In this document: piece by piece, positions 17,756 to 62,645 of the stretch | Position numbering within the stretch: the stretch's first letter is position 1 | Layout of the letters: each line of letters opens with the position of its first letter | From: Megaustenia siamemsis | Taxonomy: Eukaryota > Mollusca > Gastropoda > Stylommatophora > Ariophantidae | DNA length: 64,000 nt | Assembly: GCA_032433765.1 (NCBI GenBank) | Contig: JAVIAB010000160.1 | Location: 20,468,115 to 20,532,114, forward strand | Direction: 5' to 3' | Translations under genes and position numbers: made by a program | The notes under the pieces: generated by a model | What the model saw: only the letters and a program-made list of their open reading frames with translations | Databases searched by the model: none | Told to the model about the DNA's origin: nothing

Positions 17756-17779
17756 ACACCAGTTATAGATAGATTTTCA

Positions 17780-18150
17780 TACCTGACACGGACCTTACCT
17801 ATCACGGATCTTACCTGACACGGATCTTACCTGCCATTGGTCTTCTCTGTCACGGATCTTACCTGCATTGGGTCTTACTTGTCACGAATCTTACCTGCCT
17901 TGGGTCTTATCTGTCACGGATCTTACTTGTCATAGATCTTACCTGCCTTGGGTCTTATCTGTCACGGATCTTACTTGTCACAGATCTTACCTGTCACGGA
18001 TCTTACCTGCCACGGATCTTACCTGCCTTGGGTCTTATCTGTCACGGATCATACCTGCCTTGGATCTTACCTTTCACGGATCTTACATGTCATAGTCCTT
18101 ACCTCACACGGATCTTACCTGTCACGGATCTTACATGTTTTCATATATTT
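17780..18150. repeat. 16-bp minisatellite carrying repeated 5' splice-site consensus on the minus strand
   Basis: Units TCACGGATCTTACCTG and CTTGGGTCTTATCTG/TTACTTG. Read on the minus strand, about nine units contain CAGGTAAG, a perfect animal 5' splice site. The array lies in the 14500-20044 intron, in the transcribed orientation. Confidence 0.9.
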
Positions 18151-18248
18151 GTATCAGTTGTTGTATACTCTATCGGCTCACACGAAATTTACTTGTTATC
18201 TTCATCTACTACGTTTGTCAGACGACAACTTCTCTTTATCGTCCGCCA

Positions 18249-18515
18249 TTAAATGGACGCTAGGTTGGCGTAGATACGTAGTGTCGTTAGTTTACGGTAG
18301 GTCACGACGCAAGAGAAATCGTTCAGACTGACACATCCAGACATTTTTGAATACCATGTTTCCTTGCCTCTTTTGATCATCACCCACTTGGTTAGACTGT
18401 CTGTTTCCAGAGCACTACTGGGAACTGGAGTGAGATCTAGATAAGCTCCCTTGTTCCGCCGATCCCTATGCAAAGATTCAGCTATACGTCTGACTGCTTT
18501 CAATTCGGGAAACAT
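18249..18515 (-). other. Unassigned 88-codon open frame
   Basis: The predicted peptide includes ELKAVRRIAESLHRDRRNKG, then LDLTPVPSSALETDSLTKWV. It is not a low-complexity product and not part of a repeat found elsewhere in the window, but I recognise no domain. It could be an unlisted mobile-element fragment or an alternative exon of the surrounding gene. Confidence 0.3.
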
Positions 18516-18623: not shown

Positions 18624-19335
18624 GGTTATCAGGCAAGCACATGGTTCGACAACAATGTCGTCGGTAGTCGGGTGTGTTCAACCCGTATGTGAAAAGTCTG
18701 CGACGGTGGATGGGGAGGAATAATTTGAAATATTCAACGGCCCAGAAAGCGAAAACAGCAAAATGTGTGGTACACATGAGGCATATTCAGAACACGAAAG
18801 GCGAATGTGGCAGACCACCGTGAAAGAGATTGGAGCCTCATCACGTAACAATCCAAAGAAAGCCATGGAGAGAAATTCTAACTACTGTTTTAGGAACGAA
18901 ATAAAAATAGCTACATGGAATTCCTGTATGGTGCAGAAACATGGACATTAGACAAGAAAACAGAACAGAAAATTGAAGCCTTTGAAATGTGGATTTATAG
19001 AAGAATAGGTAGAATTAGATGGAAACAAAAGATAACAAACGATAAAGTTTTAAAACAACTGAAAATAAAAAGAGAACTACTAAATACAATCAAGACAATA
19101 CAACTGAAATTTTTGGGGCATATTAAAAGACACAACAGCCTACTAAAAGTAATATTGGAAGGAAAAATACAAGGTAAAAGAGGCAGAGGCAGACCAAGAC
19201 TAACATCGACGAGTAACATCAAAAGATGGACAAGTCAATCTATGACAGCCTGCAACATCAAAGCAAGAAACAGAGTAGAATGGCGATCCATGGTAGCCAA
19301 TCTTCGTTGCGGAGAAGGCACACGATGATGATGAT
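18606..19335 (+). mobile_element. LINE family D, internally deleted insertion with 12-bp TSD
   Basis: The direct repeat ATCATATAACTT at 18594-18605 and 19336-19347 bounds the insertion. The 5' part ends in the first residues of an endonuclease domain (NEIKIATWNS). The text then jumps to the post-RT region (YGAETWTLDKKTEQKIEAFE), followed by MWIYRRIGRIRWKQKITND and the basic tail KRGRGRPRLTSTSNIKRW, ending RSMVANLRCGEGTR. The 137-codon frame 18915-19328 is intact. The 3' end is a GATGATGAT tail. Both ends are retained but the EN core and the whole RT are missing, so this is a non-autonomous deletion derivative. Confidence 0.88.
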
Positions 19336-19708: not shown

Positions 19709-20057
19709 CCTGATGTAACACACTTTATCTGATGTCTATCTGACATGGTCTGCATGAAATTACATGACCTACCTAATATCACAGGCTCAATCTGAAATAA
19801 AATGTCGCATCGTATGCCCAGCCTAACATCAAACCTTGTGCCTGATATCACACGCTTACCTGATATGACACGTCGTATCTGATATCACATTACCTACCTA
19901 ATATCATATGTCCTACCTAATATCGAACCTAGTATCACACATCGTATCTGAAATCACATTACCTACCTGGTATCACACGTTGTATCTGATATCACATTAC
20001 CTACCTGATATCACTATTACCTACCTGATATCACTATTACCTACCTGATATCACATG
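19708..20057. repeat. ~20-bp minisatellite derived from the exon end and donor of the SYDE-type gene
   Basis: Unit CCTACCTGATATCACTATTA and variants. On the minus strand this is GTGATATCAG|GTAGGTAATA, i.e. the last coding bases of the 20045-21148 exon plus its 5' splice site. Units next to the exon are perfect and degrade with distance. Confidence 0.9.
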
Positions 20058-21148
20058 TATGTCCGACACGTTCTCAGCCGATAAGTCCACGGTCTGGGCG
20101 TTGTTTTCAAAAGCCTCTCTTAAGACTGCCTTCCTCCTGGCACTTCCACACAATCTGTAAATTCCGACAGTCTCCAGACCTCTCCGCTCCACCTCAAGCA
20201 CACACTTGTGGACAAGCAATGGAATATTCAGACCGGAATGTTCTCGAAGTATAATAGTTTCCAGATCTACCCCAAACAGAGCGTTTTTCTTCATGGACGG
20301 CAAACGTTGTAAAGATATTGCTGGTTCTTTGTACAGGAGAGTCACAAAGAGAATTCCCTTCGGCTCCAGCTTGATGGCAACGTATCGTTTATGCCCGCTG
20401 TGAACGTAGCCAGGAAGCAAGATAGAACCATGGAAGCAGAGTCTGTGTTTATAGCTGGGGTCCCAGTGGTAAATAAGAAACGATGCTTCTTTAGAATCTT
20501 CAAGGTCAATGTCAAATGCTTCATCCCAGTCGAAGTTGATAGCACCAGTTCGAATCATTGTTCGAGCTTTGTTGAGGGAGTCCACAGCTACAACACAGTA
20601 CAAGTCACGAAGGCTCGTTTTGGATGACTTCAGTCCTTGTCCGGACATGATGTGAATGTTGAGCATTCCATCCAGCCCTCCAGTCCGAGTGATTTCTACT
20701 CGTTTTTTAATATCCGCCTTATAAGGCTCGAACTCGCTGTACGGTATATGTAAAGGCTTACGAGTTAGTTGGAGGTCTCGCAGTCGCGCTGTGGCTGTTC
20801 TGGGTGATATAGCCGATGGGTCTCCATGCTTGGCGAGTTGAATGGAAGTCTGTGAGGTAGATACAGACAGGCCAGCTGCTAACGACAGCGGCATGCCTCC
20901 GCCTATGCTTTCTGACCCTGACAAAGATCTGCCTGACAGATCTGGATGCGATTCGTGCTGATAGGCGCTATACATGAACGGTGGCGTTTCTGCGCTGGGG
21001 TTACGGATGAGGCGAGGCGGAATGACGGGAGTTTGAGTGGACGCTGCCCGTCGAACTGGTCCTGGTGATCCCTGTCGGGAGAGAGACTGACAGCCATACT
21101 CATCACCTGACAGACTTTCAGTCCGAGACAACGGCAATTGTCCGACTC
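20045..21148 (-). CDS. SYDE: SYDE/syd-1-type gene, large internal exon: linker, C2 domain and start of RhoGAP domain
   Basis: A 1,104-bp exon on the minus strand between acceptor TATATTCTAG (21149) and donor CAG|GTAGGTAA (20044), phase 1 at both ends, open for 367 codons. Residues 1-120 are Ser/Pro-rich and look disordered. The segment from about residue 130 (RKPLHIPYSEFEPYKADIKK) leads into a C2 domain at about 156-275 (GGLDGMLNIHIMSGQGL, then FDWDEAFDIDL, then GSILLPGYV). RhoGAP starts at about 290 (FGVDLETIILREHSGLNIP) and includes the catalytic arginine in GIYRLCGSARRK. C2 followed by RhoGAP with this linker is typical of SYDE/syd-1/RhoGAP100F, which act in presynaptic assembly in worms, flies and mammals. 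The next exon is 14339-14499. No frameshift or stop is present. Confidence 0.93.
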
Positions 21149-21300
21149 CTAGAATATACACAATATAAAGCATTAACTATAATGTACTGCGACAAGAGTA
21201 TATGTATAGACAGTGTATTGAATGATCTCTAGTGTGCTGAGATAAGAGTATACGTATCAGTGGCGTATACTGGTTTTGGGGTCTGGGCTACCGCTGATAT

Positions 21301-33229: not shown

Positions 33230-33833
33230 GCTAATCTAATTATTTAGTTAATTTGTTAGTTAATTAGTTAGTTAGTTAGTTAATTAGTTAATCAGTCAGC
33301 TAGTTAGTTAATTAGTTAGTTAGTTAGTCAGTTAGTTAGGTAATTAATTAATTAGTCAGTTAGTTAGCTAATTAGTTTGTTAATTAGTCAATTAGTTTGT
33401 TACTTAGTTAGTTACTTAGTAAGTTAGTTAATTAATTAGTAAGTTAGTCAGTTAGTTTATTAGTCAGTTAGTAAGTTCATTAGTTAGTTAGTTATTTAGT
33501 TAGTCAATTAGTTAGTTAATTAGTTAGCTAGTCAGTTAGTTAGCTAGTTAGTTAGTCAGTCAATCAGTTAGTTAGTTAGTAGTCAGTTAATCAGTCAGTC
33601 AGTTAATCTCTCAGTCAGTTAAATAATTAGTCAGTCAGTCAGTCAGTTAGTTAATTAGTCAGTCAGTAAGTTAGTTAATTAGTTAGTCAGTTAGTTAGTT
33701 AATTAGTTAGCTAGTCAGTTAGTTAGCTAGTTAGTTAGTCAGTCAATCAGTTAGTTAGTTAGTAGTCAGTTAATCAGTCAGTCAGTTAATCTCTCAGTCA
33801 GTTAAATAATTAGTCAGTCAGTCAGTCAGCCTG
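33230..33833. repeat. TTAG/TCAG tetranucleotide array, left half
   Basis: About 600 bp of degenerate (TTAG/TTAA/TCAG)n with a ~180-bp internal duplication (33510-33650 and 33690-33830). It is the target into which the 10.9-kb palindrome inserted; the array resumes at 44769. Confidence 0.9.
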
Positions 33834-33893
33834 AGTAGTATACAAGGGTCCAACTGATTATTATTTGGCCCGTAAATTAACAAAGATATATAG

Positions 33894-33912
33894 TAGGCGC
33901 GCGGCGCGCCTA
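33894..33912. repeat. Subterminal GC-rich hairpin, left
   Basis: TAGGCGCGC-G-GCGCGCCTA, a perfect 9-bp inverted repeat 60 bp inside the terminus, all G/C in an AT-rich setting. The same hairpin is at the right end. Confidence 0.9.
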
Positions 33913-34289
33913 ATGTACTGTAGGCGCAGGGGGAGTTAACCGTGACAGCTGGTCCCAGTGACCCCGGAAGTGACCTGTTTATGTCTGGTGTATGCTGACT
34001 TTGGAGTTCTTTATGTACTTGATCGTTAGTGATAGGTTAGTAGATTATACAACATCAATAAAAAACAATCAATATAAAACAGAAGACAAAGATATATTTT
34101 ATTCTTTTATTATCTCAATAGGTGTATAACATACATTGATATTATATAACATTACAAAAATATTCAGTACACGAAGTAAATATATAGTACAAGGATAGCA
34201 TTTAGTTATACCTAGGTAGTTGGGTGTCTGCTTAGCTAGGGTGAAACTGTTAGAGATTGCTGGGTAGTCTAAACTGGTAGTGTAAAGAG

Positions 34290-34673
34290 TTAAATATCTA
34301 GAGGTGTAGTCGAGACGTTATCATCAGCTACCTTTCTTTTTATATAGAAATAGGAAAGAGCATTTCTTGTTTGACTGTAGGAAAATATGGAATTATTTAA
34401 GACTTTGAAACCTACATTTTTCCCACCCTTGACCTTTTGCGTGGCGAGAACCTCTAAAAACATATATTTATCTAATTTGTTGTGTTGCTTGCTTAGCCCT
34501 TTACAACTGATTTTATCGTAATCCCCACTACAATGGTACGTCTTACTACATAAGCTAACAAGAGCTGTCCCTTCGTACTCTAGTTTAAAAAGCCCGGGCG
34601 TTCGTTTGGTGTATGCTTTAACACCCTTACAGTTTATACAGTCTGTTTTACTAGTATGTTCATCGCAGCAATG
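34290..34673 (-). pseudogene. Polinton protein-primed DNA polymerase B, C-terminal fragment (left arm)
   Basis: 127 codons plus TAA on the minus strand, open without interruption. It begins in a Cys-rich stretch (HCCDEHTSKTDCINCKGVKA) and continues through TPGLFKLEYEG, LCSKTYHCSG and ALSYFYIKRKV, ending TTPLDI. This cysteine-knuckle, TPGLFK and SKTY arrangement is the conserved C-terminal end of Polinton-type PolB proteins. All catalytic motifs (exonuclease, palm) lie upstream in the family and are absent: the frame runs out into the 32-bp minisatellite. The stop is 456 bp from the element end, with transcription pointing outward. The right arm has the same 384 bp. Confidence 0.85.
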
Positions 34674-35690
34674 GGTGTATGGAGGTCGCCTAGTGTGTAA
34701 TAAGGGCTGTATAGGGGTCGGCTAGTATGTCGTGATGGGTGTACGGAGGTCGTCTAGTGTGTCATATTGGGTGTATAGAGGGCGTTTAGTGTGTCATAAT
34801 GGTTGTATAGGGGTCGTCTAGTGTGTCATGATGGTTGTATAGGGGTCGTCTTGTGTGTCATGATGGTTGTATAGGGGTCGTCTAGTGTGCCGTGATGGGT
34901 GTACGGAGGTCGTCTAGTGTGTCATATTGGGTGTATAGAGGGCGTTTAGTGTGTCATGATGGTTGTATAGGGATCGTCTAGTGTGTCATGATGGTTGTAT
35001 AGGGGTCGTCTAGTGTGCCGTGATGGGTCAATGGAGGTCGGCTAGTATGTCGTGATGGGTGTACGGAGGTCGTCTAGTGTGTCATATTGGGTGTATAGAG
35101 GGCGTTTAGTGTGTCATGATGGTTGTATAGGGATCGTCTAGTGTGTCATGATGGTTGTATAGGGGTCGTCTAGTGTGCCGTGATGGGTCAATGGAGGTCG
35201 GCTAGTATGTCGTGATGGGTGTACGGAGGTCGTCTAGTGTGTCATATTGGGTGTATAGAGGGCGTTTAGTGTGTCATGTTGGTTGTATAGGGGTCGTCTA
35301 GTGTGTCATGATGGTTGTATAGGGGTCGTCTAGTGTGCCATGATGGGTACATGGAGGTCGGCTAGTATGTCGTGATGGGTGTACGGAGGTCGTCTAGTGG
35401 GGTATGATGGTTGTATGGAGGTCGTCTAGTGTGTCATATTGGGTGTATAGAGGGCGTTTAGTGTGTCATGATGGTTGTATAGGGGTCGTTTAGTGTATCG
35501 TGAGGGGTGTATGGAGGTCGTCTACTGTGTCGTGAGGGGTGTATGGAGGTCATCTGGTGTGGTATGTAGGGTGTATGGAGGTCATCTAGTGTGATATAAG
35601 GCTGTATGCCGGGCGTCTAGTGTGACATGAGGGCTGTATACCGGGCGCCTAGTGTGGTATGTGTGGTGTATGGCGGTTGTCTGGTATATC
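34674..35690. repeat. 32-bp minisatellite of the palindrome, left arm
   Basis: Unit GTGTGTCATGATGGTTGTAT + AGGGGTCGTCTA with several variant types (GTGTACGGAGG, TATTGGGTGTATAGAGGGCG) in a higher-order pattern. It starts exactly where the PolB frame is lost, and its unit resembles the adjoining PolB-frame sequence. Confidence 0.93.
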
Positions 35691-35739
35691 ATACTTTAAT
35701 CAACCAATAAGAAAAATGAAGGAACATTACATTCAACAT

Positions 35740-35935
35740 TACTTATCTTAACTACTTTACATCAATACAGTTGAATAACGTGTTATCGTTAAGTCTTACC
35801 ATACTTTAAGAGAAAACATTCAACTTACAGCGTAAAATATAGTCTCAATCATCTACACCGAATATAACCTGTTATCGATAAGCCTTAACATACTTTAAGA
35901 GAAAACAAGCCAACTTACGGTGCAAAACTCCGCTA
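35740..35935. repeat. Two ~95-bp direct repeats in the left arm
   Basis: GTTATCGTTAAGTCTTACCA and GTTATCGATAAGCCTTAACA head two related segments, both continuing TACTTTAAGAGAAAACA and CAACTTAC. The mirrored pair is at about 42660-42850. Confidence 0.75.
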
Positions 35936-36020
35936 GTGTGAACAGTAACTTTCCTTGAATCAATCAAACTTATAACGCCGTCTAGTTTAAATATAACCTG
36001 GTAAGAAATGAATAAATTAG

Positions 36021-36136
36021 CCAATCAGCGAGTGAGTACGTCAACATCGCTTGATAGCGGGATTAACCAATCAGAAAAGAGTATTAACATAGGAGGCGGG
36101 GCGAAGAAATGGCTGACAGGTGGATTAACCAATCAG
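36021..36136 (+). promoter_or_regulatory. Three CCAATCAG boxes, left arm
   Basis: CCAATCAG at 36021, 36067 and 36129 on the plus strand, around the start of the small open frame at 36109. CCAAT boxes are NF-Y sites in animal promoters. The complement occurs in the right arm near 42460-42580. Promoter function is inferred. Confidence 0.45.
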
Positions 36137-36324
36137 AAAAGCGCGTTAGCCCAAGCGTAGGTAGTGGCTGTCGGGTCAGCAGTGGGGGAAAAATGCGGGG
36201 TGGTGGGTTACTTGAACTCGTTTTGACCCCTGAGGCAATTCCAGAAGAGTTCTATGATCTCATTTTGACCGCTGAAGGCTTAATACCAATGTTTCCCACT
36301 TCAACGAACGACATACATCATTAA
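36109..36324 (+). CDS. Small open frame in the palindrome arm, unknown function
   Basis: 71 codons starting ATGGCTGACAGG and containing LELVLTPEAIPEEFYDLILT. The text does not look like repeat and I recognise no family. The right-arm counterpart (minus, about 42179-42490) differs by single-base length changes in homopolymers, so its frame leaves this one and instead continues to RMTDNSKDDHFR. In the left arm the corresponding later sequence ends at CAG|GTAAG, a perfect 5' splice site (about 36412). Whether either arm shows the true frame cannot be decided from this sequence. Coding status is uncertain. Confidence 0.4.
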   Translation: MADRWINQSEKRVSPSVGSGCRVSSGGKMRGGGLLELVLTPEAIPEEFYDLILTAEGLIPMFPTSTNDIHH

Positions 36325-36439
36325 AGGTGATTACTTCAGCTCTTAGACTTTGGAGTTCCATATCTTTATCACTTCAACGAATGACAGACAACAGTAAAGA
36401 TGATCATTTCAGGTAAGAAAACTTAGTTCCAAACCCTAA

Positions 36440-37760
36440 AATTTTGGTTCATACTCACAAAGTTGAACACAAACTCTACAAATTTAGGCCCAAAGTTGTA
36501 ATTGTTAGACACGAAAGTCGTAAATGTTATATGCAAAGTCCAAAAGTTTGTCAAAAAGATAACCTAAACTCAAAATAGTTAGACACAAAGCCCAACAATT
36601 TATATGCAAAGTCTAAAAAAGTTACTCTAAAAGACAACTAATGTAATACTTAACCCCAAAATTTCGTCACATAACCAAACAGTTGAACACGAACTCTACA
36701 AATTTAGTCCCAAAGTCGTAATTGTTAGACACGAAAGTCGTAAATGTTATATTCAAATCCAAAAGTTTGTTAAAAAGACAACCCAAACTCAAAATAGTTA
36801 GATGCAAAGCTCAAAAATGTATATGCAAAATCCAAAAAGTTACGCCAAAAGACAACTAATGTAACACTTAACCCCAAAATTTCGGCTCATATGCACAAAG
36901 TTGAACTCGAAAGCCTAAAAATTTAGTCCCAAAGTCGTAATTGTTAGACACGAAAGTCGTAAATGTTATATTCAAATCCAAAAGTTTGTTAAAAAGACAA
37001 CCCAAACTCAAAATAGTTAGACACAAAACCCAACAATTTATAGGCAAAGTCCAAAAAGTTACTCCAAAAGACAACTAATGTAACACTTAACCCAAAAATT
37101 TCGTCTCATAACCAAACAGTTGAACTCAAAACCATAAAAATTTAGTCCCAAAGTGATACTAGTTCGACACAAAAGTCGTAAATATTATATACAAAGTCTA
37201 AAAGTTTGTCAAAAAGACAACCCAAACTCAGAATAGTTAGACACAAAACCCAACAATTTATAGGCAAAGTCCAAAAAGTTACTCCAAAAGACAACTAATG
37301 TAACACTTAACCCAAAATTTCGTCTCATAACCAAACAGTTGAACTCAAAACCCTAAAAATTTAGTCCCAAAGTGATACTAGTTCGACACAAAAGTCGTAA
37401 ATGTTATATACAAAGGCCAAAACTTTGTCAAAAAGACAACCCAAACTCAGAATAGTTAGACACGAAAGTCATAAATGTTATATGCAAAGTCCAAAATTTT
37501 ATCAAAAAGACAACCCAAACTCAGAATATTTAGACACAAAAGACCAAATAGTTACATTCAAAGTCCAAAAGTTTGTCAAAAAGACAACCCAAACTCAAAA
37601 GTTTGTCAAAAAGACAACCCAAACTCAAAATAGTTAGACATGAAAGGTCAAAAAGGTATACTCAAAGTCCAAAATGTTACTTCAAAAGACAACTAATATA
37701 ACAACAAGCCCCAAAACTTCGTCTCATAACCAAAAAGTTGAACTCAAAACCCTAAAAAGT
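36440..37760. repeat. ~220-bp tandem repeat with ~20-bp subrepeats, left arm
   Basis: The landmark GTTGAAC-C-AA-CTCTA/CCTA recurs near 36462, 36681, 36899, 37117 and 37339 (period about 219 bp). Within each unit phrases such as CAAAGTCCAAAAGTTTGT and GACACGAAAGTCGTAAATG give A-tracts at about 20-bp spacing. The mirrored array is at about 40840-42150. Confidence 0.85.
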
Positions 37761-37899
37761 GTCCACTTATCAACCAAAGTCTTTAATACAGCTGAGAAAA
37801 CCCTAATAAATTATTACAATTTACTAAAAAGGTTGCCCTTGATGATAGTTGCGACTGTGTCTAAATCATTATTGAAAATATTCATAGAACTCTAGTAAA

Positions 37900-38265
37900 A
37901 ACCAAACACACTAAAACACCACATTGAAAGAATGAACTTAAAGTTCACGCCCCTGTCACAACTCTGCTAAGAAAAGTACTGCAAAGCATGAAAGTTATGT
38001 CCCCTGCTATAACTCTACTAAACGAAAGTACTACCAAACACGTAGGTTACACTCCTACCATAACCCACTAAGAAAAACAAGATTTTGCTTAAAATACCAC
38101 ATTTATGATTGTTACGCCCCTTGTCCCTTTATGAGGGGACGCCCATGAAACTGTTAGAAATAGTAAATTTAACCTAGTGGCATACCCCAGATGTTATATT
38201 AGACACCCCCATAGCAAAAATTTACTTAAAACTCACTTTTATGGTGGTTACCCCCATACCCATTT
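37900..38265. other. Transition segment of the left arm
   Basis: Includes repeated phrases (ACTCTACTAA / ACTCTGCTAA with AAAGTACT) and the first divergent copy of the 136-bp unit. No gene. Confidence 0.5.
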
Positions 38266-39000
38266 TTGGCGGTTACGCCCATGAAACTGTTAAAAATAGT
38301 CAATTTAACATCTAGACATACCCCAAACTTTATATTAAGCATCCCCATATCAAGAATTTACATAAAAACAACTTTTGAAATTACTACCCCTGTACCCATT
38401 TTGGCGGTTACGCCCATGAAACTGTTAAAAATTGTCAATTTAACATCTAGACATACTCCAAACTTTACATTAGACATCCCCATAGCAAAAATTTGCTTAA
38501 AAACAACTTTTGAAATTACTACCCCTGTACCCATTTTTGGCGGTTACGCCCATGAAACTGTTAAAAATAGTAAATTTAACATATAGACATACCCCAAACT
38601 TCATTTTAGTCATCCCCGTATCAAGAATTTACATAAAAATCACTTTTGAAATTACTACCCCTGTACCCATTTTTGGCGGTTACGCCCATGAAACTATTAA
38701 AAATTGTCAATTTAACATCTAGACATACTCCAAACTTCATTTTAGTCATCCCATATCAAGAATTTACATAAAAACAACTTTTGAAATTACTACCCCTGTA
38801 CCCATTTTTGGCGGTTACGCCCATGAAACTGTTAAAAATAGTAAATTTAACATATAGACATACCCCAAACTTCATTTTAGTCATCCCCGTATCAAGAATT
38901 TACATAAAAATCACTTTTGAAATTACTACCCCTGTACCCATTTTTGGCGGTTACGCCCATGAAATCGATAAAAAATTGAAATTTAACCTATTGGTATACC
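38266..39000. repeat. 136-bp tandem repeat, left arm
   Basis: Unit begins TGGCGGTTACGCCCATGAAA and includes CTAGACATACCCCAAACTT and TTTGAAATTACTACCCCTGT; period 135-136 bp. Because the period is not a multiple of three, the 60-106-codon frames here are by-products. Confidence 0.9.
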
Positions 39001-39083
39001 TCAAACATAACATTTGACACGCCCATGTATCAAATTTACCTGAAAAATCAATCAAAAATTAGTAGTATATATCTAGTGATTGG

Positions 39084-39241
39084 CCGGGTAGACTCTCATA
39101 TAAGGAAAAAAACGGTAGACTCTCATATAAGAAAAAATGAAGACTCTCATATAAGGAAAAACCGCACCAAAAATGTGCGGCCATGTACGGGTAGACTATT
39201 TATATAAGGATTTATGCGCGGCTGGCCGAACTTTTGGGGGT
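39084..39241. other. Apex (non-palindromic spacer) of the 10.9-kb palindrome
   Basis: 158 bp with three copies of AGACTCTCATATAAGG-type sequence and one AGACTATTTATATAAGG, then a small hairpin CCGCAC/GTGCGG. TATATAAGG resembles a TATA box. On each side the arm near the apex contains AGTAGTATATA (39061-39071 and complement 39254-39264), echoing the element terminus. Confidence 0.75.
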
Positions 39242-40500
39242 CCAATCACTGGCTATATACTACTAATTTTTGATTGATTTTTCAGGTAAATTTGATACAT
39301 GGGCGTGTCAAATGTTATGTTTGAGGTATACCAATAGGTTAAATTTCAATTTTTTATCGATTTCATGGGCGTAACCGCCAAAAATGGGTACAGGGGTAGT
39401 AATTTCAAAAGTGATTTTTATGTAAATTCTTGATACGGGGATGACTAAAATGAAGTTTGGGGTATGTCTATATGTTAAATTTACTATTTTTAACAGTTTC
39501 ATGGGCGTAACCGCCAAAAATGGGTACAGGGGTAGTAATTTCAAAAGTTGTTTTTATGTAAATTCTTGATATGGGGATGACTAAAATGAAGTTTGGAGTA
39601 TGTCTAGATGTTAAATTGACAATTTTTAATAGTTTCATGGGCGTAACCGCCAAAAATGGGTACAGGGGTAGTAATTTCAAAAGTGATTTTTATGTAAATT
39701 CTTGATACGGGGATGACTAAAATGAAGTTTGGGGTATGTCTATATGTTAAATTTACTATTTTTAACAGTTTCATGGGCGTAACCGCCAAAAATGGGTACA
39801 GGGGTAGTAATTTCAAAAGTTGTTTTTAAGCAAATTTTTGCTATGGGGATGTCTAATGTAAAGTTTGGAGTATGTCTAGATGTTAAATTGACAATTTTTA
39901 ACAGTTTCATGGGCGTAACCGCCAAAAATGGGTACAGGGGTAGTAATTTCAAAAGTTGTTTTTATGTAAATTCTTGATATGGGGATGCTTAATATAAAGT
40001 TTGGGGTATGTCTAGATGTTAAATTGACTATTTTTAACAGTTTCATGGGCGTAACCGCCAAAAATGGGTATGGGGGTAACCACCATAAAAGTGAGTTTTA
40101 AGTAAATTTTTGCTATGGGGGTGTCTAATATAACATCTGGGGTATGCCACTAGGTTAAATTTACTATTTCTAACAGTTTCATGGGCGTAACCGCCAAAAA
40201 TGGGTACAGGGGTAGTAATTTCAAAAGTTGTTTTTATGTAAATTCTTGATATGGGATGCTTAATATAAAGTTTGGGGTATGTCTAGATGTTAAATTGACT
40301 ATTTTTAACAGTTTCATGGGCGTAACCGCCAAAAATGGGTATGGGGGTAACCACCATAAAAGTGAGTTTTAAGTAAATTTTTGCTATGGGGGTGTCTAAT
40401 ATAACATCTGGGGTATGCCACTAGGTTAAATTTACTATTTCTAACAGTTTCATGGGCGTCCCCTCATAAAGGGACAAGGGGCGTAACAATCATAAATGTG
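39242..40500. repeat. 136-bp tandem repeat, right arm (two extra units)
   Basis: Mirror of 38100-39000. It contains an additional A-B pair of units (text TAACATCTGGGGTATGCCAC occurs at about 40130 and 40405 but only once in the left arm), accounting for the 271-bp excess length of the right arm. Confidence 0.88.
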
Positions 40501-40839
40501 GTATTTTAAGCAAAATCTTGTTTTTCTTAGTGGGTTATGGTAGGAGTGTAACCTACGTGTTTGGTAGTACTTTCGTTTAGTAGAGTTATAGCAGGGGACA
40601 TAACTTTCATGCTTTGCAGTACTTTTCTTAGCAGAGTTGTGACAGGGGCGTGAACTTTAAGTTCATTCTTTCAATGTGGTGTTTTAGTGTGTTTGGTTTT
40701 TACTAGAGTTCTATGAATATTTCAATAATGATTTAGACACAGTCGCAACTATCATCAAGGGCAACCTTTTTAGTAAATTGTAATAATTTATTAGGGTTTT
40801 CTCAGCTGTATTAAAGACTTTGGTTGATAAGTGGACACT

Positions 40840-42150
40840 TTTTAGGGTTTTGAGTTCAACTTTTGGTTATGAGACGAAGTTTTGGGGCTTGTTGTTATAT
40901 TAGTTGTCTTTTGAAGTAACATTTTGGACTTTGAGTATACCTTTTTGACCTTTCATGTCTAACTATTTTGAGTTTGGGTTGTCTTTTTGACAAACTTTTG
41001 AGTTTGGGTTGTCTTTTTGACAAACTTTTGGACTTTGAATGTAACTATTTGGTCTTTTGTGTCTAAATATTCTGAGTTTGGGTTGTCTTTTTGATAAAAT
41101 TTTGGACTTTGCATATAACATTTATGACTTTCGTGTCTAACTATTCTGAGTTTGGGTTGTCTTTTTGACAAAGTTTTGGCCTTTGTATATAACATTTACG
41201 ACTTTTGTGTCGAACTAGTATCACTTTGGGACTAAATTTTTAGGGTTTTGAGTTCAACTGTTTGGTTATGAGACGAAATTTTGGGGTTAAGTGTTACATT
41301 AGTTGTCTTTTGGAGTAACTTTTTGGACTTTGCCTATAAATTGTTGGGTTTTGTGTCTAACTATTCTGAGTTTGGGTTGTCTTTTTGACAAACTTTTAGA
41401 CTTTGTATATAATATTTACGACTTTTGTGTCGAACTAGTATCACTTTGGGACTAAATTTTTATGGTTTTGAGTTCAACTGTTTGGTTATGAGACGAAATT
41501 TTTGGGTTAAGTGTTACATTAGTTGTCTTTTGGAGTAACTTTTTGGACTTTGCCTATAAATTGTTGGGTTTTGTGTCTAACTATTTTGAGTTTGGGTTGT
41601 CTTTTTAACAAACTTTTGGATTTGAATATAACATTTACGACTTTCGTGTCTAACAATTACGACTTTGGGACTAAATTTTTAGGCTTTCGAGTTCAACTTT
41701 GTGCATATGAGCCGAAATTTTGGGTTAAGTGTTACATTAGTTGTCTTTTGGCGTAACTTTTTGGATTTTGCATATACATTTTTGAGCTTTGCATCTAACT
41801 ATTTTGAGTTTGGGTTGTCTTTTTAACAAACTTTTGGATTTGAATATAACATTTACGACTTTCGTGTCTAACAATTACGACTTTGGGACTAAATTTGTAG
41901 AGTTCGTGTTCAACTGTTTGGTTATGTGACGAAATTTTGGGGTTAAGTATTACATTAGTTGTCTTTTAGAGTAACTTTTTTAGACTTTGCATATAAATTG
42001 TTGGGCTTTGTGTCTAACTATTTTGAGTTTAGGTTATCTTTTTGACAAACTTTTGGACTTTGCATATAACATTTACGACTTTCGTGTCTAACAATTACAA
42101 CTTTGGGCCTAAATTTGTAGAGTTTGTGTTCAACTTTGTGAGTATGAACC
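40840..42150. repeat. ~220-bp tandem repeat, right arm
   Basis: Reverse complement of 36440-37760. Confidence 0.85.
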
Positions 42151-42178
42151 AAAATTTTAGGGTTTGGAACTAAGTTTT

Positions 42179-42373
42179 CTACCTGAAATGATCATCTTTA
42201 CTGTTGTCTGTCATTCGTTGAAGTGATAAAGATATGGAACTCCAAAGTCTAAGAGCTGAAGTAATCACCTTTAATGATGTATGTCGTTCGTTGAAGTGGG
42301 AAACATTGGTATTAAAGCCTTCAGCGGTCAAAATGAGATCATAGAACTCTTCTGGAATTGCCTCAGGGGTCAA
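42179..42373 (-). CDS. Right-arm counterpart of the small open frame
   Basis: The minus strand reads TPEAIPEEFYDLILTAEGFN and on to RMTDNSKDDHFR and a stop. It overlaps the 36109 product in its middle part and diverges after single-base homopolymer differences. At the position of the left-arm splice donor this arm has CAGGTAGA. Confidence 0.35.
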   Translation of the reverse strand: MTPEAIPEEFYDLILTAEGFNTNVSHFNERHTSLKVITSALRLWSSISLSLQRMTDNSKDDHFR

Positions 42374-42904
42374 AACGAGTTCAAGTAACCCACCACCCGC
42401 ATTTTTCCCCCACTGCTGACCCGACAGCCACTACCTACGCTTGGGCTAACGCGCTTTTCTGATTGGTTAATCCACCTGTCAGCCATTTCTTCGCCCCGCC
42501 TCCTATGTTAATACTCTTTTCTGATTGGTTAATCCCGCTATCAAGCGATGTTGACGTACTCACTCGCTGATTGGCTAATTTATTCATTTCTTACCAGGTT
42601 ATATTTAAACTAGACGGCGTTATAAGTTTGATTGATTCAAGGAAAGTTACTGTTCACACTAGCGGAGTTTTGCACCGTAAGTTGGCTTGTTTTCTCTTAA
42701 AGTATGTTAAGGCTTATCGATAACAGGTTATATTCGGTGTAGATGATTGAGACTATATTTTACGCTGTAAGTTGAATGTTTTCTCTTAAAGTATGGTAAG
42801 ACTTAACGATAACACGTTATTCAACTGTATTGATGTAAAGTAGTTAAGATAAGTAATGTTGAATGTAATGTTCCTTCATTTTTCTTATTGGTTGATTAAA
42901 GTAT

Positions 42905-43921
42905 GATATACCAGACAACCGCCATACACCACACATACCACACTAGGCGCCCGGTATACAGCCCTCATGTCACACTAGACGCCCGGCATACAGCCTTATA
43001 TCACACTAGATGACCTCCATACACCCTACATACCACACCAGATGACCTCCATACACCCCTCACGACACAGTAGACGACCTCCATACACCCCTCACGATAC
43101 ACTAAACGACCCCTATACAACCATCATGACACACTAAACGCCCTCTATACACCCAATATGACACACTAGACGACCTCCATACAACCATCATACCCCACTA
43201 GACGACCTCCGTACACCCATCACGACATACTAGCCGACCTCCATGTACCCATCATGGCACACTAGACGACCCCTATACAACCATCATGACACACTAGACG
43301 ACCCCTATACAACCAACATGACACACTAAACGCCCTCTATACACCCAATATGACACACTAGACGACCTCCGTACACCCATCACGACATACTAGCCGACCT
43401 CCATTGACCCATCACGGCACACTAGACGACCCCTATACAACCATCATGACACACTAGACGATCCCTATACAACCATCATGACACACTAAACGCCCTCTAT
43501 ACACCCAATATGACACACTAGACGACCTCCGTACACCCATCACGACATACTAGCCGACCTCCATTGACCCATCACGGCACACTAGACGACCCCTATACAA
43601 CCATCATGACACACTAGACGATCCCTATACAACCATCATGACACACTAAACGCCCTCTATACACCCAATATGACACACTAGACGACCTCCGTACACCCAT
43701 CACGGCACACTAGACGACCCCTATACAACCATCATGACACACAAGACGACCCCTATACAACCATCATGACACACTAGACGACCCCTATACAACCATTATG
43801 ACACACTAAACGCCCTCTATACACCCAATATGACACACTAGACGACCTCCGTACACCCATCACGACATACTAGCCGACCCCTATACAGCCCTTATTACAC
43901 ACTAGGCGACCTCCATACACC
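42905..43921. repeat. 32-bp minisatellite of the palindrome, right arm
   Basis: Mirror of 34674-35690 with the same unit order near the PolB fragment (including the single CTTGTGTGTC-type variant) and nearly the same total length. Confidence 0.93.
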
Positions 43922-44305
43922 CATTGCTGCGATGAACATACTAGTAAAACAGACTGTATAAACTGTAAGGGTGTTAAAGCATACACCAAACGAACGCCCG
44001 GGCTTTTTAAACTAGAGTACGAAGGGACAGCTCTTGTTAGCTTATGTAGTAAGACGTACCATTGTAGTGGGGATTACGATAAAATCAGTTGTAAAGGGCT
44101 AAGCAAGCAACACAACAAATTAGATAAATATATGTTTTTAGAGGTTCTCGCCACGCAAAAGGTCAAGGGTGGGAAAAATGTAGGTTTCAAAGTCTTAAAT
44201 AATTCCATATTTTCCTACAGTCAAACAAGAAATGCTCTTTCCTATTTCTATATAAAAAGAAAGGTAGCTGATGATAACGTCTCGACTACACCTCTAGATA
44301 TTTAA
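43922..44305 (+). pseudogene. Polinton protein-primed DNA polymerase B, C-terminal fragment (right arm)
   Basis: Same 127 codons plus TAA as the left arm, on the plus strand; the frame is actually open from 43874, through minisatellite sequence reading RRPPYTHCCDE. The stop lies 457 bp from the terminus. Two oppositely oriented copies of a gene end that normally occurs once per Polinton show that one end of the element was copied onto the other. No start codon or catalytic motif is present, so it cannot act as a polymerase. Confidence 0.85.
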
Positions 44306-44683
44306 CTCTTTACACTACCAGTTTAGACTACCCAGCAATCTCTAACAGTTTCACCCTAGCTAAGCAGACACCCAACTACCTAGGTATAAACTAAATGCTA
44401 TCCTTGTACTATATATTTACTTCGTGTACTGAATATTTTTGTAATGTTATATAATATCAATGTATGTTATACACCTATTGAGATAATAAAAGAATAAAAT
44501 ATATCTTTGTCTTCTGTTTTATATTGATTGTTTTTTATTGATGTTGTATAATCTACTAACCTATCACTAACGATCAAGTACATAAAGAACTCCAAAGTCA
44601 GCATACACCAGACATAAACAGGTCACTTCCGGGGTCACTGGGACCAGCTGTCACGGTTAACTCCCCCTGCGCCTACAGTACAT

Positions 44684-44702
44684 TAGGCGCGCCGCGCGCC
44701 TA
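44684..44702. repeat. Subterminal GC-rich hairpin, right
   Basis: TAGGCGCGC-C-GCGCGCCTA, mirror of 33894-33912. Confidence 0.9.
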
Positions 44703-44762
44703 CTATATATCTTTGTTAATTTACGGGCCAAATAATAATCAGTTGGACCCTTGTATACTACT

Positions 44763-44900
44763 AGCCTGTTAGTTGATTAGTCAGTCAGTCAGTTAGTTAA
44801 TTAGTTAGTCAGTTAGTTAGTCAGTCAGTCAGCCAGTCAGTTAGTTAATTTGTCAGTCAGTCAGTCAGTTAGCTAGTTAGTTAGTTGGTTAGTCAGTCGA
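44763..44900. repeat. TTAG/TCAG array, right remainder
   Basis: Continues the array of 33230-33833 after the AGCCTG duplication. Confidence 0.88.
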
Positions 44901-48279: not shown

Positions 48280-48498
48280 GGATTTGAATTATATACTTTT
48301 GCACAATGAAGGAAATCTGATGTGCAAATGCTACAAAATATGTTTTACAGGATTGCCCCCAGTACACAGACCTGAGAAGAGCAATGTGGTCCACGCCCAC
48401 CTCCCTGGAAGAGAAAATATATGGGGCAATCGATTCTTAAACAGACAGCTGACTTCATGAGAGAGTCTGGAATCCTACTCTGATTGAGTCTTGATCGC

Positions 48499-48531
<33 letters not shown>

Positions 48532-48535
48532 TAAA
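48280..48535 (+). mobile_element. (GA)n-tailed retroposon inside LINE A
   Basis: Matches 21666-21911 from GATTGCCCCCAGTACACAGA through GACTTCATGAGAGAGTCTGG to GATCGCAGAGAAAGAGAGAG. Flanking LINE text stops at about 48285 (ATATGGATTTGAATTAT) and resumes at about 48553 (GAACAACAGATGAGAAAATC). Confidence 0.82.
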
Positions 48536-49089
48536 GAATCATATATAATAGAACAACAGATGAGAAAATCACTGGAGGCTGTAGAAATGTTGTTTTATTA
48601 CAGAAGAATGTTGAGAATACCATGGACAGCTAAGAAAAGTAATGAAAACGTTCTGAAAGAGGCCAAAACAAAAAGAGAGCTTATTTCCAATATTAGGAAG
48701 GAACCACCATCATTGTTTGGCCATGTAATGAGAAGAGAAAAGCTGGGATATATTGTGACAACTGGGAAAATTGAGGGGCAAAGAGATAGAGGGAAGCAAA
48801 GAGAAAAGACACCATACAGCTTAAAAGAATAGCAGTAGGTAAACAACAGAAATGATATATAACTGTCGAGATCGAAAGTTGTGGAGAGACATGATCACCT
48901 ACGCCAGCATGCATGATACATGATGATGTATTCTAACACATCTGTTAACAATGATCGTAAATTTGTAGCTCTATAATTAGCTTTAGCATTTTTTCTAGAA
49001 TTGTTATGCATAACTTTCCTACATTACTGATTATGGAGATACACCTATATTGGTTGCATTCTCTCCACTACCTTTGTTGTTCTATAATA

Positions 49090-50070
49090 GTACGACAATT
49101 AAAAAATAGCAGAAATAGACTCAAGGTACAAAAAAGTTTGTCAAGTCATTGGACATCTATCGCCACTATTGCCTAACAAGGAAATAACACTAGAGGCAAA
49201 ACGGGCACTCTACAAAACAACAATCCCAACGTTGTGCTTCCAATGCCAGTCCTGGACCCTAGAAACAAGAACAATAAGACAAATAACCACCACCGAGATG
49301 AAATGAGATAGACAAATAACAGGAAACAGATTGAGAGATAAGATCAGAAATGAAGAACGGACAAAAAAAAAGCTAGTAATAACCCCCACCATAAAATATA
49401 TAAAGAAACCACAAATAAAATGGTTTGGCCACGTGATAAGACAGAAAGATCAAAACACAACGCAAGGAGCCTTCAATAAATGTTGCGATATACCAGACCC
49501 AAGGGCCGACCACAAAACATGGATTTGCGGAATATTTGAAACACTAGGAAACAGAAATTCTAACCTATGGAAGCGAATCATGGACAGTGGACAAACAAAT
49601 GAAAAACGATTGGAGGCCACAGAGATGGGATTTCTCAGAAGAATGTTGAAAGTTCCTTGGACAGCTAAAAAGACCAATGAGGAAGTTCTCAAAGAGGCCA
49701 ACACAAAAAGGGAGCTCTTAAAAAACATCAGAAAGAAGCAATCAACATTTTTCGGGCACATCATGAGAAGAGGAAAGTTGGAATACTTGGTTACAACTGG
49801 AAAAATAAAAGGAAAGAGAGATCGTGGGCGACAAAAAGAGAGAAAATACTGGATAGCCTGGTGTTATGGCATGGAAACAGTCAACAACAGAACTGATACG
49901 ATGCACTGTAGATAGAAGATTGTGGAGGGACATGATCGCCTACGCCACCCGGTATGGCACATGATGATGAGGAAACAGAAAAGGCGAACAGAAGACTAAA
50001 AGACCGCAAATTATATCTCCCCTCGACGCTGAAAGACAAATGAGAAAGGAAAGAAGAATATGAAGAACAA
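49090..50070 (+). pseudogene. LINE family B, C-terminal region, split by LINE C
   Basis: The plus strand: EITLEAKRALYKTTIPTLCF, a stop near 49310, then NRLRDKIRNEERTKKKLVIT, IKWFGHVIRQKDQNTTQGAF, then after the LINE C insert AEANRR-like text and DRKLYLPSTLKDK. The open frame 49331-49915 is a chimera of family B and inserted family C and is not a real protein. Confidence 0.85.
49558..49969 (+). mobile_element. LINE family C, 412-bp insertion in LINE B, 12-bp TSD
   Basis: AGGAAACAGAAA at 49546-49557 and 49970-49981. The insert reads NLWKRIMDSGQTNEKRLEAT, EMGFLRRMLKVPWTAKKTNE, QSTFFGHIMRRGKLEYLVTT and ends GGCACATGATGATG. RT is absent (5'-truncated). Confidence 0.93.
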
Positions 50071-57600: not shown

Positions 57601-57618
57601 AACAAGTAGTTCAGTAGT

Positions 57619-58214
57619 AATGAATTTAAATATTTGGCAACTTTGTTAACCTCAGACGGAAGATGTGCAAAAGAGGTGAGATGCAGAATGGCTCAGGCAA
57701 ATGCAGCTTTCCAAAAAAAGTTGAAGATACTATGCAATCCATTTTTGACAATAGAAACTGGAAAAAGAATTCTTAAATGTTATGTAGAGCCAGTCTTAAC
57801 ATATGGATATGAATCATGGACAATAGGACAACAGACAAGAAAATCACTGGAGTCTGTAGAAATGTGGTTTTACAGAAGAATATTGAGAATACCATGGACA
57901 GCTAAGAAGAGTAATGAAAGCGTTCTGAAAGAGGCCAAAGCAAAAAGAGAGCTAATTTCCAATATTAGGAATAAACAATCATCATTTTTTTGGGCTATAT
58001 ATTGAGAAGGGAACAGCTGGAATATATTGTAACAACTGGGAAAATTTAGGGACGAAGAGATAGAGGGAAGCAAAGAGAAAAGATACCAACGAGACAGCTT
58101 AAGTGAATGGCTTGGCAGAAGGTCAACAAAAGAAATGATAAATTACTGTCGTGATCGAGAGTTGTGGAGTGACATGATCACCTACGCCAGCAGGCCCGGT
58201 ACTTGATGATGATG
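57619..58214 (+). mobile_element. LINE family A, 596-bp insertion, 11-bp TSD
   Basis: AGTTCAGTAGT at 57608-57618 and 58215-58225. The frame is intact from EFKYLATLLTSDGRCAKEVR through SLESVEMWFYRRILRIPWTA to NIRNKQSSFFWAIY, where a one-base insertion in a T-run breaks it. The end is TTGATGATGATG. 5'-truncated after the RT active site. Confidence 0.92.
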
Positions 58215-59082: not shown

Positions 59083-59166
59083 TAGAACCATGAAACCGTC
59101 GATCAAAATCGAAATTCTTGTCCTTTTGTTGTCAAGTTCACGAACCATTGAGCTATCGCGGCTCCC
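59083..59166 (-). mobile_element. tRNA-derived SINE head only
   Basis: The reverse complement reads GGGAGCCGCGATAGCTCAAT with an A box, then the B-box region TTTCGATTTTGA, and stops where the GATA tract begins. Confidence 0.8.
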
Positions 59167-59199
59167 TTAAGTAGTAGTAGTATATTATTAATAATAGCC

Positions 59200-60660
59200 C
59201 AATTGTAGTGACCCAGTAGTAGTGACCCAGTAGTAGTGACCCAGTAGTAGTCCAGTAGTAGTGACCCAGTAGTAGTGACCCAGTAATAGTCCAGTAGTAG
59301 TGATCCAGTAGTAGTGACCCAGTAGTAGTATATTATTAATAATAGCCCAATTGTAGTGACCCAGTAGTAGTCCAGTAGTAGTGACCCAGTAGTAGTGACC
59401 CAGTAATAGTCCAGTAGTAGTGATCCAGTAGTAGTGACCCAGAAGTAGTCCAGTAGTAGTGATCCAGTAGTAGTCCAGGAGTAGTGATCCAGTAGTAGTC
59501 CAGGAGTAGTGATCCAGTAGTAGTGACCCAGTAATAGTCCAGCAGTAGTGATCCAGTAGTAGTGACCCAGTAGTAGTCCAGTAGTAGTGATCCAGTAGTA
59601 GTCCAGGAGTAGTGATCCAGTAGTAGTGACCCAGTAATAGTCCAGCAGTAGTGATCCAGTAGTAGTGACCCAGTAGTAGTCCAGTAGTAGTGATCCAGTA
59701 GTAGTCCAGTAGTAGTGATCCAGTAGTAGTCCAGTAGTAGTGATCCAGTAGTAGTCCAGGAGTAGTGATCCAGTAGTAGTCCAGGAGTAGTGATCCAGTA
59801 GTAGTGACCCAGTAATAGTCCAGCAGTAGTGATCCAGTAGTAGTGACCCAGTAGTAGTCCAGTAGTAGTGATCCAGTAGTAGTCCAGGAGTAGTGATCCA
59901 GTAGTAGTGACCCAGTAATAGTCCAGCAGTAGTGATGCAGTAGTAGTGACCCAGTAGTAGTCCAGTAGTAGTGATCCAGTAGTAGTCCAGTAGTAGTGAT
60001 CCAGTAGTAGTCCAGTAGTAGTGATCCAGTAGTAGTCCAGGAGTAGTGATCCAGTAGTAGTCCAGGAGTAGTGATCCAGTAGTAGTGACCCAGTAATAGT
60101 CCAGCAGTAGTGATCCAGTAGTAGTGACCCAGTAGTAGTGATCCAGTAGTAGTCCAGGAGTAGTGATCCAGTAGTAGTGACCCAGTAATAGTCCAGCAGT
60201 AGTGATTCAGTAGTAGTGACCCAGTAGTAGTCCAGTAGTAGTGATCCAGTAGTAGTGACCCAGTAGTAGTCCAGTAGCAGTGACCCAGTAGTAGTCCAGT
60301 AGTGACCCAGTAATAGTCCAGTAGTAGTGACCCAGTAGTAGTCCAGTAGTAGTGATCCAGTAGTAGTGACCCAGTAGTAGTCCAGTAGTAGTGATCCAGT
60401 AGTAGTGACCCAGTAGTAGTCCAGTAGTAGTGACCCAGTAGTAGTCCAGTAGTAGTGATCCAGTAGTAGTGACCCAGTAGTAGTCCAGTAGTAGTCCAGT
60501 AGTAGTCCAGTAGTAGTGATCCAGTAGTAGTGACCCAGTAGTAGTCCAGTAGCAGTGACCCAGTAGTAGTCCAGTAGTGACCCAGTAATAGCCCAGTAGT
60601 AGTCCAGTAGCAGTAGTTAAGTAGTATTAGTAGTCAAGTAATAGTAGTACATTATTAATA
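59200..60660. repeat. AGTCCAGTAGTAGTGA(T/C)CC-type minisatellite
   Basis: Variable 12- to 30-bp units built from AGTAGT, AGTCC and GA(T/C)CC blocks, with higher-order duplications of about 140-200 bp. Confidence 0.92.
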
Positions 60661-61020: not shown

Positions 61021-62275
61021 AGCAGTAGTCCAGTATTAGTAGTAGTAGTTGTAGTCCATGTAGTCCATGTAGTCCATGTAGTCCTGTAGTAGTAGTATTA
61101 TACCAGTAATAGTACTCCAGAAGTAGTAGTCCAGTAGTAGTCCAATTTTACTAGTAGTCCATATAGTCCAGTAGTAGTGAAAGTCCATGTAGTCCAATAG
61201 TCGATGTAGTCTAGTAGTAGTAGTCCATGTAGTCCAGTAGTAGTGGTTGTCCATGTAGTCCAACAGTTCATGTAGTCCAGTAGTCCATGTAGTCCAGTAG
61301 TCCATGTAGTCCAGTAGTAGTGGTAGTCCAGTAGTAGTGGTAGTCCAGTAGTAGTGGTAGTCCAGTAGTCCATGTAGTCCAGTAGTAGTGGTAGTCCAGT
61401 AGTCCATGTAGTCCAGTAGTAGTGGTAGTCCAGTAGTCCATGTAGTCCAGTAGTAGTGGTAGTCCAGTAGTAGTGGTAATCCAGTAGTAGTGGTAGCCCA
61501 GTAGCCCATGTAGTCCAGTAGTAGTGGTAGTTCAGTAGTAGTGGTAGCCCTGTAGTATTGGTAGCCCAGTAGTAGTGGTAGTCCAGTAGTAGTGGTAGTC
61601 CAGTAGTAGTGGTAGTCCAGTAGTCCATGTAGTCCAGTAGTAGTGGTAGTCCACTAGTAGTGGTAGTCCAGTAGTAGTGGTACTCCAGTAGTAGTGGTAG
61701 TCCAGTAGTAGTGGTAGTCCAGTAGTAGTGGTAGTCCAGTAGTAGTGGAAATCCAGTAGTCCATGTAGTCCAGTAGTAGTGGTAGTCCATGTAGTCCAGT
61801 AGTAGTGGTAGTCCAGTAGTAGTGGTAGTCCAGTAGTCCATGTAGTCCAGTAGTAGTGGTAGTCCAGTAGTAGTGGTAGTCCAGTAGTAGTGGTAGTCCA
61901 GTAGTAGTGGTAGTCCAGTAGTACTGGTAGTCCAGTAGTAGTGGTAGTCCAGTAGTAGTGGTAGTCCAGTAGTAGTGGTAATCCAGTAGTAGTGGTAGTC
62001 CAGTAGTAGTGGTAGCCCAGTCGTAGTGGTAGTCCAGTAGTAGTGGTAGTCCAGCAGTAGTGGTAGTCCAGTAGTACTGGTAGTCCAGTAGTAGTGGTAG
62101 TCCAGCAGTAGTGGTAGTCCAGTAGTACTGGTAGTCCAGTAGTAGTGGTAGTCCAGTAGTAGTGGTAGTCCAGTAGTAGTGGTAATCCAGTAGTAGTGGT
62201 AGCCTAGTCGTAGTGGTAGTCCAGTAGTAGTGGTAGTCCAGCAGTAGTGGTAGTCCAGTAGTAGTAGTCAAGTAG
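61021..62275. repeat. 17-bp minisatellite (GTAGTCCAGTAGTAGTG)
   Basis: About 70 units. Three units make 51 bp, which cycles all frames and yields the long minus-strand LLLDYHYYWTTTT frames of 157-247 codons; these overlap one another in different frames and are products of the repeat. Confidence 0.95.
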
Positions 62276-62645
62276 TGCATGTGTTTTAGAACTCTTTTCA
62301 AACATAGAAATACAAGAAACTATAATTTTTAAAACAAAGTAGTGGTCCTAACTGATTGGAAATATCCTATTTGGTTCAAACAAAAGTATTTTCTTAGCAT
62401 CTCTTGCCACGAGCTAACAATGCAACCCTATATGCCTTTTTATATGATAATATGCCTTGAAGTGCCTTGAAAGCAACAATGACGTTCCTCAAATTGGCAC
62501 ACTTCATGACAATCTTTCGCAGAACGCTCCAATTCAGGCCCTCATTTTTAGATCTATTGTCATGTGGCATTTCTCGTTCTACACCCCCCCCCCCACCACA
62601 GCAACTCACAGTTTTAGTGACTGTTTTGGATTTCTTTTGAGCATC
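62276..62645. other. No gene seen
   Basis: Unique sequence with a C-run at 62583-62592. Confidence 0.45.

Follow-up and report, generated by a model that had tools for sequence, protein, structure and literature searches.

The window analysed in this study comprises 64,000 nucleotides of the gastropod Megaustenia siamemsis (assembly GCA_032433765.1, contig JAVIAB010000160.1, positions 20,468,115 to 20,532,114). At 33834–44762 it contains an element of about 10.9 kb which, as global alignment of one arm against the other showed, is a near-perfect palindrome. The arms differ by two substitutions, 9 and 11 bp from the edge of the apex, by ten single-base indels, every one within a homopolymer run of 2–5 bases, and by one array-length difference of 271 bp, about two 136-bp units. 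Both ends start AGTAGTATACAAGGGT, and directly outside each stands AGCCTG, a perfect 6-bp duplication. The symmetry ends at this duplication, and the flanks, (TTAG/CAGT)-type arrays, are not mirror images. An identical stop-to-stop frame of 143 codons, ending in the C-terminus of a protein-primed DNA polymerase B (polB), lies at both ends (34290–34721, minus strand; 43874–44305, plus strand); the open-reading-frame listing of this copy gave no further long gene. A 6-bp target duplication and 5'-AG ends define Polintons. A first-pass annotation had described a palindrome with arms of 5,250 and 5,521 bp around a 158-bp apex, Polinton-like ends with a perfect 6-bp duplication, and a polB terminus at each end without any other Polinton gene. 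The arm alignment, the ends of this copy and its relatives, and the frame listing of the window, respectively, bear out this description.

The element is one of many independent insertions with exact ends. The outer 840 bp served as query against the genome (2.59 Gb in 155 contigs; the window is C155:20468115-20532114); 40 of 4,509 first-look candidates were scored, and the figures given here are therefore minimum numbers. All 40 matched with 98–100% identity over at least 831 bases and represented 27 places: the window copy, 13 inverted pairs and 13 unpaired matches. The right end of the window element itself was absent among them, indicating that the match list is incomplete. The 13 pairs, taken as separate halves (L009–L034), have ends 10.1–13.5 kb apart, and the terminal 9-mer AGTAGTATA was present at both ends in all 14 compared pairs (the window copy and the 13). 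In all 14, the 6-bp duplication was perfect and different from the others, and the arms aligned along their length, so that all are palindromes. Since each of the 13 other inverted pairs carrying this 9-mer has a perfect duplication of its own, the palindrome in the window is not a product of chance.

Four unpaired matches were traced and three were counted as independent, leaving nine of the 27 places undelimited. The insertion at C59:20671952-20684723 (L036) has a perfect duplication, its right arm having been viewed over the outer ~1.4 kb only. That at C59:7984699-7995144 (L035) has a duplication matching at 5/6 positions and appeared unpaired because of a ~970-bp deletion confined to one arm. 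The third (C155:48348074-48360117) is a hybrid with a perfect duplication and unlike arms, compared over its ends and arms, with the apex and middle outside the view. At least 17 independent insertions of 10.1–13.5 kb were thus delimited, 16 of them with a perfect 6-bp duplication and one with 5/6. The first-pass annotation had taken the window copy for a lone defective genome and had proposed a search for other copies with the same terminus. That search did find palindromic relatives; with at least 17 independent insertions and one apex common to the 15 compared, it overturned the single-event reading. The fourth traced match (C105:58276132-58289217; L038, L056, L057) has a right flank identical to that of L017/L018 and was excluded from the count. 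It duplicates the L017/L018 element, the shared right flank recurring about 31 kb away, lacks 151 bp at its left end, and represents either a segmental duplication or a false duplication in the assembly.

Within elements the arms are alike, while between lineages they are unlike. In three array-free segments, arm-to-arm substitutions summed to 3 (14 elements, ~837 bp), 9 (10 elements, ~741 bp) and 4 (10 elements, ~439 bp), and mean differences between elements in the same segments were 8.9, 10.8 and 4.7. When arms were re-paired at random, sums this low arose in 0, 1 and 0 of 20,000 trials. The polB genes of four elements showed 3, 2, 5 and 4 differences between arms per ~4,415 positions, and that of L019/L020 differed from the other three at 38–44. 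Element class, terminus subfamily and an insertion in L031 are each present on both arms, and arm lengths, measured to the innermost shared 18-mer, agree within 6 bp in six of the 13 pairs (L015, L017, L019, L027, L031, L033). The window copy and L033 share a 741-bp segment without substitution, yet have 14 terminus differences, found on both L033 arms; we read this sequence pattern as a probable exchange between lineages, mirrored onto both arms. Since substitutions, classes and terminus types match on both arms, one arm serves as the template of the other, or the arms are mutually repaired, at a frequency sufficient to keep the lineages symmetric.

The apex is also a property of the family. 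Fifteen apexes (the window, the 13 pairs and L035) align and are homologous; they measure ~175–225 bp and, as at the outer ends, are framed by AGTAGT...ACTACT. AGTAGT begins 14 of the 15 rows and ACTACT ends all 15, the row of L014 being shortened. The full terminal 9-mer stands on both apex sides in 11 and on one side in L014, and the apexes of L022, L023 and L033 diverge after AGTAGT. Because apex and ends are common to the family, the palindrome had a single origin and was propagated from there. The internal repeats of the apex occur in several variants that are still paired: 13 of 20 pairs changed on both sides, with 97.5% of cells paired. Covariation over the whole structure was 0.370; shuffles averaged 0.118, with none of 500 as high, and sliding gave at most 0.090, although related sequences can beat shuffles without any structure. 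This covariation reflects mainly the arms mirroring each other up to the tip. The first small hairpin has compensatory pairs at 4 of 7 positions (85.7% of cells paired), and the second varies mostly without compensation. As single-stranded DNA, the window apex folds far better than shuffles (z −7.0), mostly via the palindromic stem. Two origins of the apex were rejected: a fused terminus, since the 9-mers face the wrong way, and a simple nested insertion, since there is no adjoining 6-bp direct repeat. The parts of the window element are given in Table 1.

Table 1. Parts of the palindromic element and its target-site duplications, in window coordinates
Feature	Position	Strand	Basis
Left 6-bp target-site duplication AGCCTG	33828..33833		
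Left arm, 5,250 bp	33834..39083	+	arm alignment
Outer terminus AGTAGTATACAAGGG...	33834..33872	+	
C-terminal remnant (~128 codons) of protein-primed polB, left copy	34293..34676	-	
32-bp tandem array, left arm; in the place of the polB body of the polB-bearing class	34671..35682		
219-bp tandem array, left arm	36432..37514		
136-bp tandem array, left arm; common to the polB-bearing class	38139..39006		
Internal terminal-repeat-like motif AGTAGTATATA..., left of apex	39061..39083	+	
Apex, 158 bp, with TATAAGG repeats and two small hairpins	39084..39241		
Internal terminal-repeat-like motif, right of apex	39242..39264	-	
Right arm, 5,521 bp	39242..44762	-	arm alignment
136-bp tandem array, right arm, 271 bp longer	39319..40459		
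219-bp tandem array, right arm	41082..42164		
32-bp tandem array, right arm	42913..43924		
C-terminal polB remnant, right copy	43919..44302	+	
Right 6-bp target-site duplication AGCCTG	44763..44768		

Four relatives are palindromes that carry a protein-primed polB of ~1,450 codons, open or interrupted, in each arm. The frame is long in L015, L018 and L022 and open end to end in L015 and L022; in most fetched arms it carries interruptions. The window copy, a derivative, keeps the last ~128 codons of polB together with tandem arrays. The Pfam polymerase profile PF03175 matched six of nine aligned relatives, and the relative P0027 is predicted by modelling to adopt a phi29-like fold; the family's own pieces gave no Pfam polymerase match. 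A genome-wide scan with PF03175 yielded 12 matches, which fall into about six loci (C100, C137, C154, C125, C87, C124). The locus on C124 (L047) belongs to the same polB family, with 78–93% amino-acid identity and a terminus match over 209 bp in a short stretch. That on C137 (L040) is distant from the element polB (30% identity), and those on C100, C154, C125 and C87 gave no match to it. The frame of L040 (L040:544-3621; C137:9135591-9137120), a distantly related, different PolB, is open over 1,025 codons. Pattern searches of IMG/VR viral contigs with the 128-residue polB terminus and an 801-residue polB alignment gave 3 and 17 matches, none confirmed, and the 143-residue terminus had no match among solved structures. 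The nine-member polB alignment weakly matched the Vsr mismatch endonuclease (E 0.03), and the Vsr-like stretch sits inside the polymerase frame (L015:759-5177). This similarity suggests a nuclease domain inside the polymerase; any role for it would be speculative. Passages of PMC11071308 report insertions of homing endonucleases within the PolB of Polintons. Among the 13 pairs, the listing of frames of at least 140 codons gave nothing beyond polB, frames overlapping polB and two frames crossing an element edge (L014, L027); this listing, made without profiles, held no candidate for a packaging ATPase, protease or capsid protein. Casposons use the Cas1 endonuclease as their integrase; in the present elements the listing showed no long frame besides polB.

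The element is Polinton-derived and not a Polinton, because its polymerase, ends and duplication match those of Polintons, whereas it is shorter and showed neither an integrase nor any further gene of Polintons. It shares with Polintons/Mavericks a protein-primed PolB, AG...CT ends and the 6-bp duplication (perfect in 16 of 17), and their published panhandle intermediate, as outlined in part of PMC4046053, resembles its form. It differs in that the whole element is an inverted repeat with polB present twice, in its length of 10.1–13.5 kb against 15–20 kb (stated in a passage of PMC4028283), and in the lack of a multigene body, no long frame beyond polB and no integrase having been seen. Very long, array-filled inverted repeats about a short centre also recall foldback elements. 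These elements, Drosophila FB and sea-urchin TU, have long inverted repeats, tandem arrays and a short centre, and a target duplication of 8 or 9 bp. In contrast, the present family has a 6-bp duplication, AG ends and, in part of its members, a polB in each arm. Vierula and Bertrand reportedly described in 1992 a hairpin derivative of the kalilo linear plasmid, likewise a protein-primed PolB replicon in hairpin form; that is a plasmid deletion derivative, whereas the present family is dispersed and has target duplications. Symmetric adenovirus recombinants are self-complementary, with one end present twice. The palindromic element would, by analogy, work like a snap-back genome, and adeno-associated virus snapback genomes, as described in part of PMC8235507, are self-complementary as well; these viral forms are described as defective or subgenomic products, unlike a self-propagating insertion family. 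The best viral matches of the modelled relative were PolBs of densovirus-, adintovirus- and bidensovirus-named viruses. Bidnaviruses are thought to have acquired PolB and inverted repeats from Polintons, and they and adintoviruses differ in having capsid genes, whole-genome palindromes not being described in the passages of PMC4061559 consulted. Teratorn, a piggyBac-herpesvirus fusion of 41–182 kb, has unrelated enzymes. Among the titles and abstract openings listed from the open-licence PMC literature, none described palindromic Polintons.

Our results make it probable that the window holds a gene-poor representative of a mobile, fully palindromic Polinton-derived family, in which one arm is regenerated from the other when the element is copied and integrase acts in trans. 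The window copy presumably rides on the polymerase of its relatives. A single-stranded or displaced strand would fold end to end into a duplex of 5–6.7 kb with a structured tip of ~200 nt. The polymerase would prime via a protein at the outer AGTAGTATA, copy one arm, round the tip and copy back, so that at each copying the arms would be made from each other, or mismatches would be exposed and repaired. An integrase supplied in trans would finally insert the duplex with a 6-bp stagger. We infer both the hairpin intermediate and the supply of integrase in trans, the latter because the 13 fetched pairs contain no integrase-sized frame. In the Polinton/casposon model, as given in part of PMC4046053, the terminal repeats of a single strand pair as a panhandle and act as origin; in a palindromic element, the whole strand would be the panhandle. 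A panhandle or snap-back origin of the symmetry, as the first-pass annotation had suggested, is supported as an explanation of the palindromic form, and integration in trans, as it had also suggested, is plausible. It is conceivable, though unlikely, that these elements represent a distinct, novel type of eukaryotic mobile DNA with a hairpin genome: the inherited unit would be one arm plus the structured tip, with polB as its sole gene, and the integrated palindrome its duplex replication form; the internal terminal repeats of the tip would help to turn the fork, and the Vsr-like nuclease region of the polymerase would replace an integrase or repair arm mismatches.

Several points weigh against the main proposal, regeneration of the arms at copying with integration in trans. 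Hairpin or extrachromosomal DNA was not observed, and chromosomal gene conversion between arms could also yield like arms. The permutation test treats related elements as independent, and the 14 elements form about five terminus lineages: the window with L009, L011, L013, L015, L017, L019 and L021; L023; L025 with L031 and L033; L027; and L029. The eight elements of the first lineage differ by just 0–4 in the outer segment, and the polB genes of L015, L017 and L021 differ by 1–6 between elements and 2–4 between arms, so that the arm comparison is silent there. Arm lengths differ by 116–529 bp in seven of the 13 pairs, and the deletion in L035 affects one arm only. Arm copying is also not absolute, as one of the 17 insertions, the hybrid at C155:48348074-48360117, combines a polB left arm with an array right arm. 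Its array arm is 95.7% identical to L035, and both arms lie within one 6-bp duplication in a GTCC-rich repeat. A template switch between two elements would account for the hybrid, with later conversion in the inserted copy and assembly error as alternatives. All copies were drawn from the matches most like the window copy, and old copies are under-sampled. An integrase-sized frame was not found in the 13 pairs, as judged from a frame listing without an integrase profile and with small-exon genes outside its scope, and no helper was found, with no dedicated genome-wide helper search behind this result.

The same observations must be weighed under other explanations. The family may be an ordinary foldback cut-and-paste family with polB as a passenger and gene conversion between arms after insertion, which we regard as unlikely. 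Its long inverted repeats rich in tandem arrays resemble foldback elements, conversion would account for the likeness of arms both in the array-free segments and in polB, and replacements in polB are not scarce (14 silent and 27 replacement differences between L019 and L015). However, between L036 and L015 silent differences exceed replacements (26 against 19), and the ends and the 6-bp duplication are Polinton-like. Furthermore, conversion in place is not fast, because the one-arm deletion, the arm-length differences and the unhomogenised hybrid persist. The elements could instead be palindromic satellites of a conventional full-length Polinton that supplies integrase and a working polymerase, the polB palindromes not being self-replicating. 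The absence of an integrase-sized frame in the 13 fetched pairs and the interrupted polB frames of most fetched arms agree with this. We nevertheless consider it improbable, since polB is open end to end in L015 and L022, and such a Polinton was not seen, although no genome-wide search aimed at one was completed; L047, the sole PF03175 match of the element polB family, sits on a stretch that is too short for a verdict either way.

Fold-back artefacts of assembly or long reads exist, according to PMC12870357, and the ten single-base arm differences in homopolymers would suit such an origin. It is very improbable here, since in all 14 pairs the palindromes stop exactly at 6-bp duplications, each different from the others, the apexes are themselves asymmetric and arm lengths are often unequal; the earlier argument against an assembly fold-back is supported. 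A single defective snap-back genome, derived from an ordinary Polinton and integrated once, would explain the symmetry, the polB terminus at each end and the 6-bp duplication of the window copy. With ends common to at least 17 independent insertions and an apex common to the 15 compared, this is hardly credible and is refuted as a single event; such a genome could survive solely as the origin of the family.

Protein-primed replicons have self-complementary genomes that are known as defective by-products. If the dispersed family described here does stay palindromic over many insertions, its arms agreeing even where lineages diverge, such genomes can represent a stable way of life, and its copies offer natural material on which the panhandle replication proposed for Polintons could be tested. 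In addition, the family would supply an animal genome with scattered 10-kb palindromes.

Elsewhere in the window, a frame at 20037–21176 (minus strand) belongs to a synaptic RhoGAP (SYDE/RhoGAP100F-like) gene, with 80% identity to the snail Bulinus truncatus, 62% to Pomacea, 65% to Littorina and 54% to Octopus; these values place the host among gastropods, probably heterobranch-like ones. Segments at 18894–19328, 48488–49915, 57610–58005 and 62866–63837 carry motifs that we take to be those of non-LTR retrotransposon reverse transcriptase fragments. Long open repetitive frames at 11002–13149, 17773–18252, 59103–60633 and 61036–62319 resemble minisatellite arrays.

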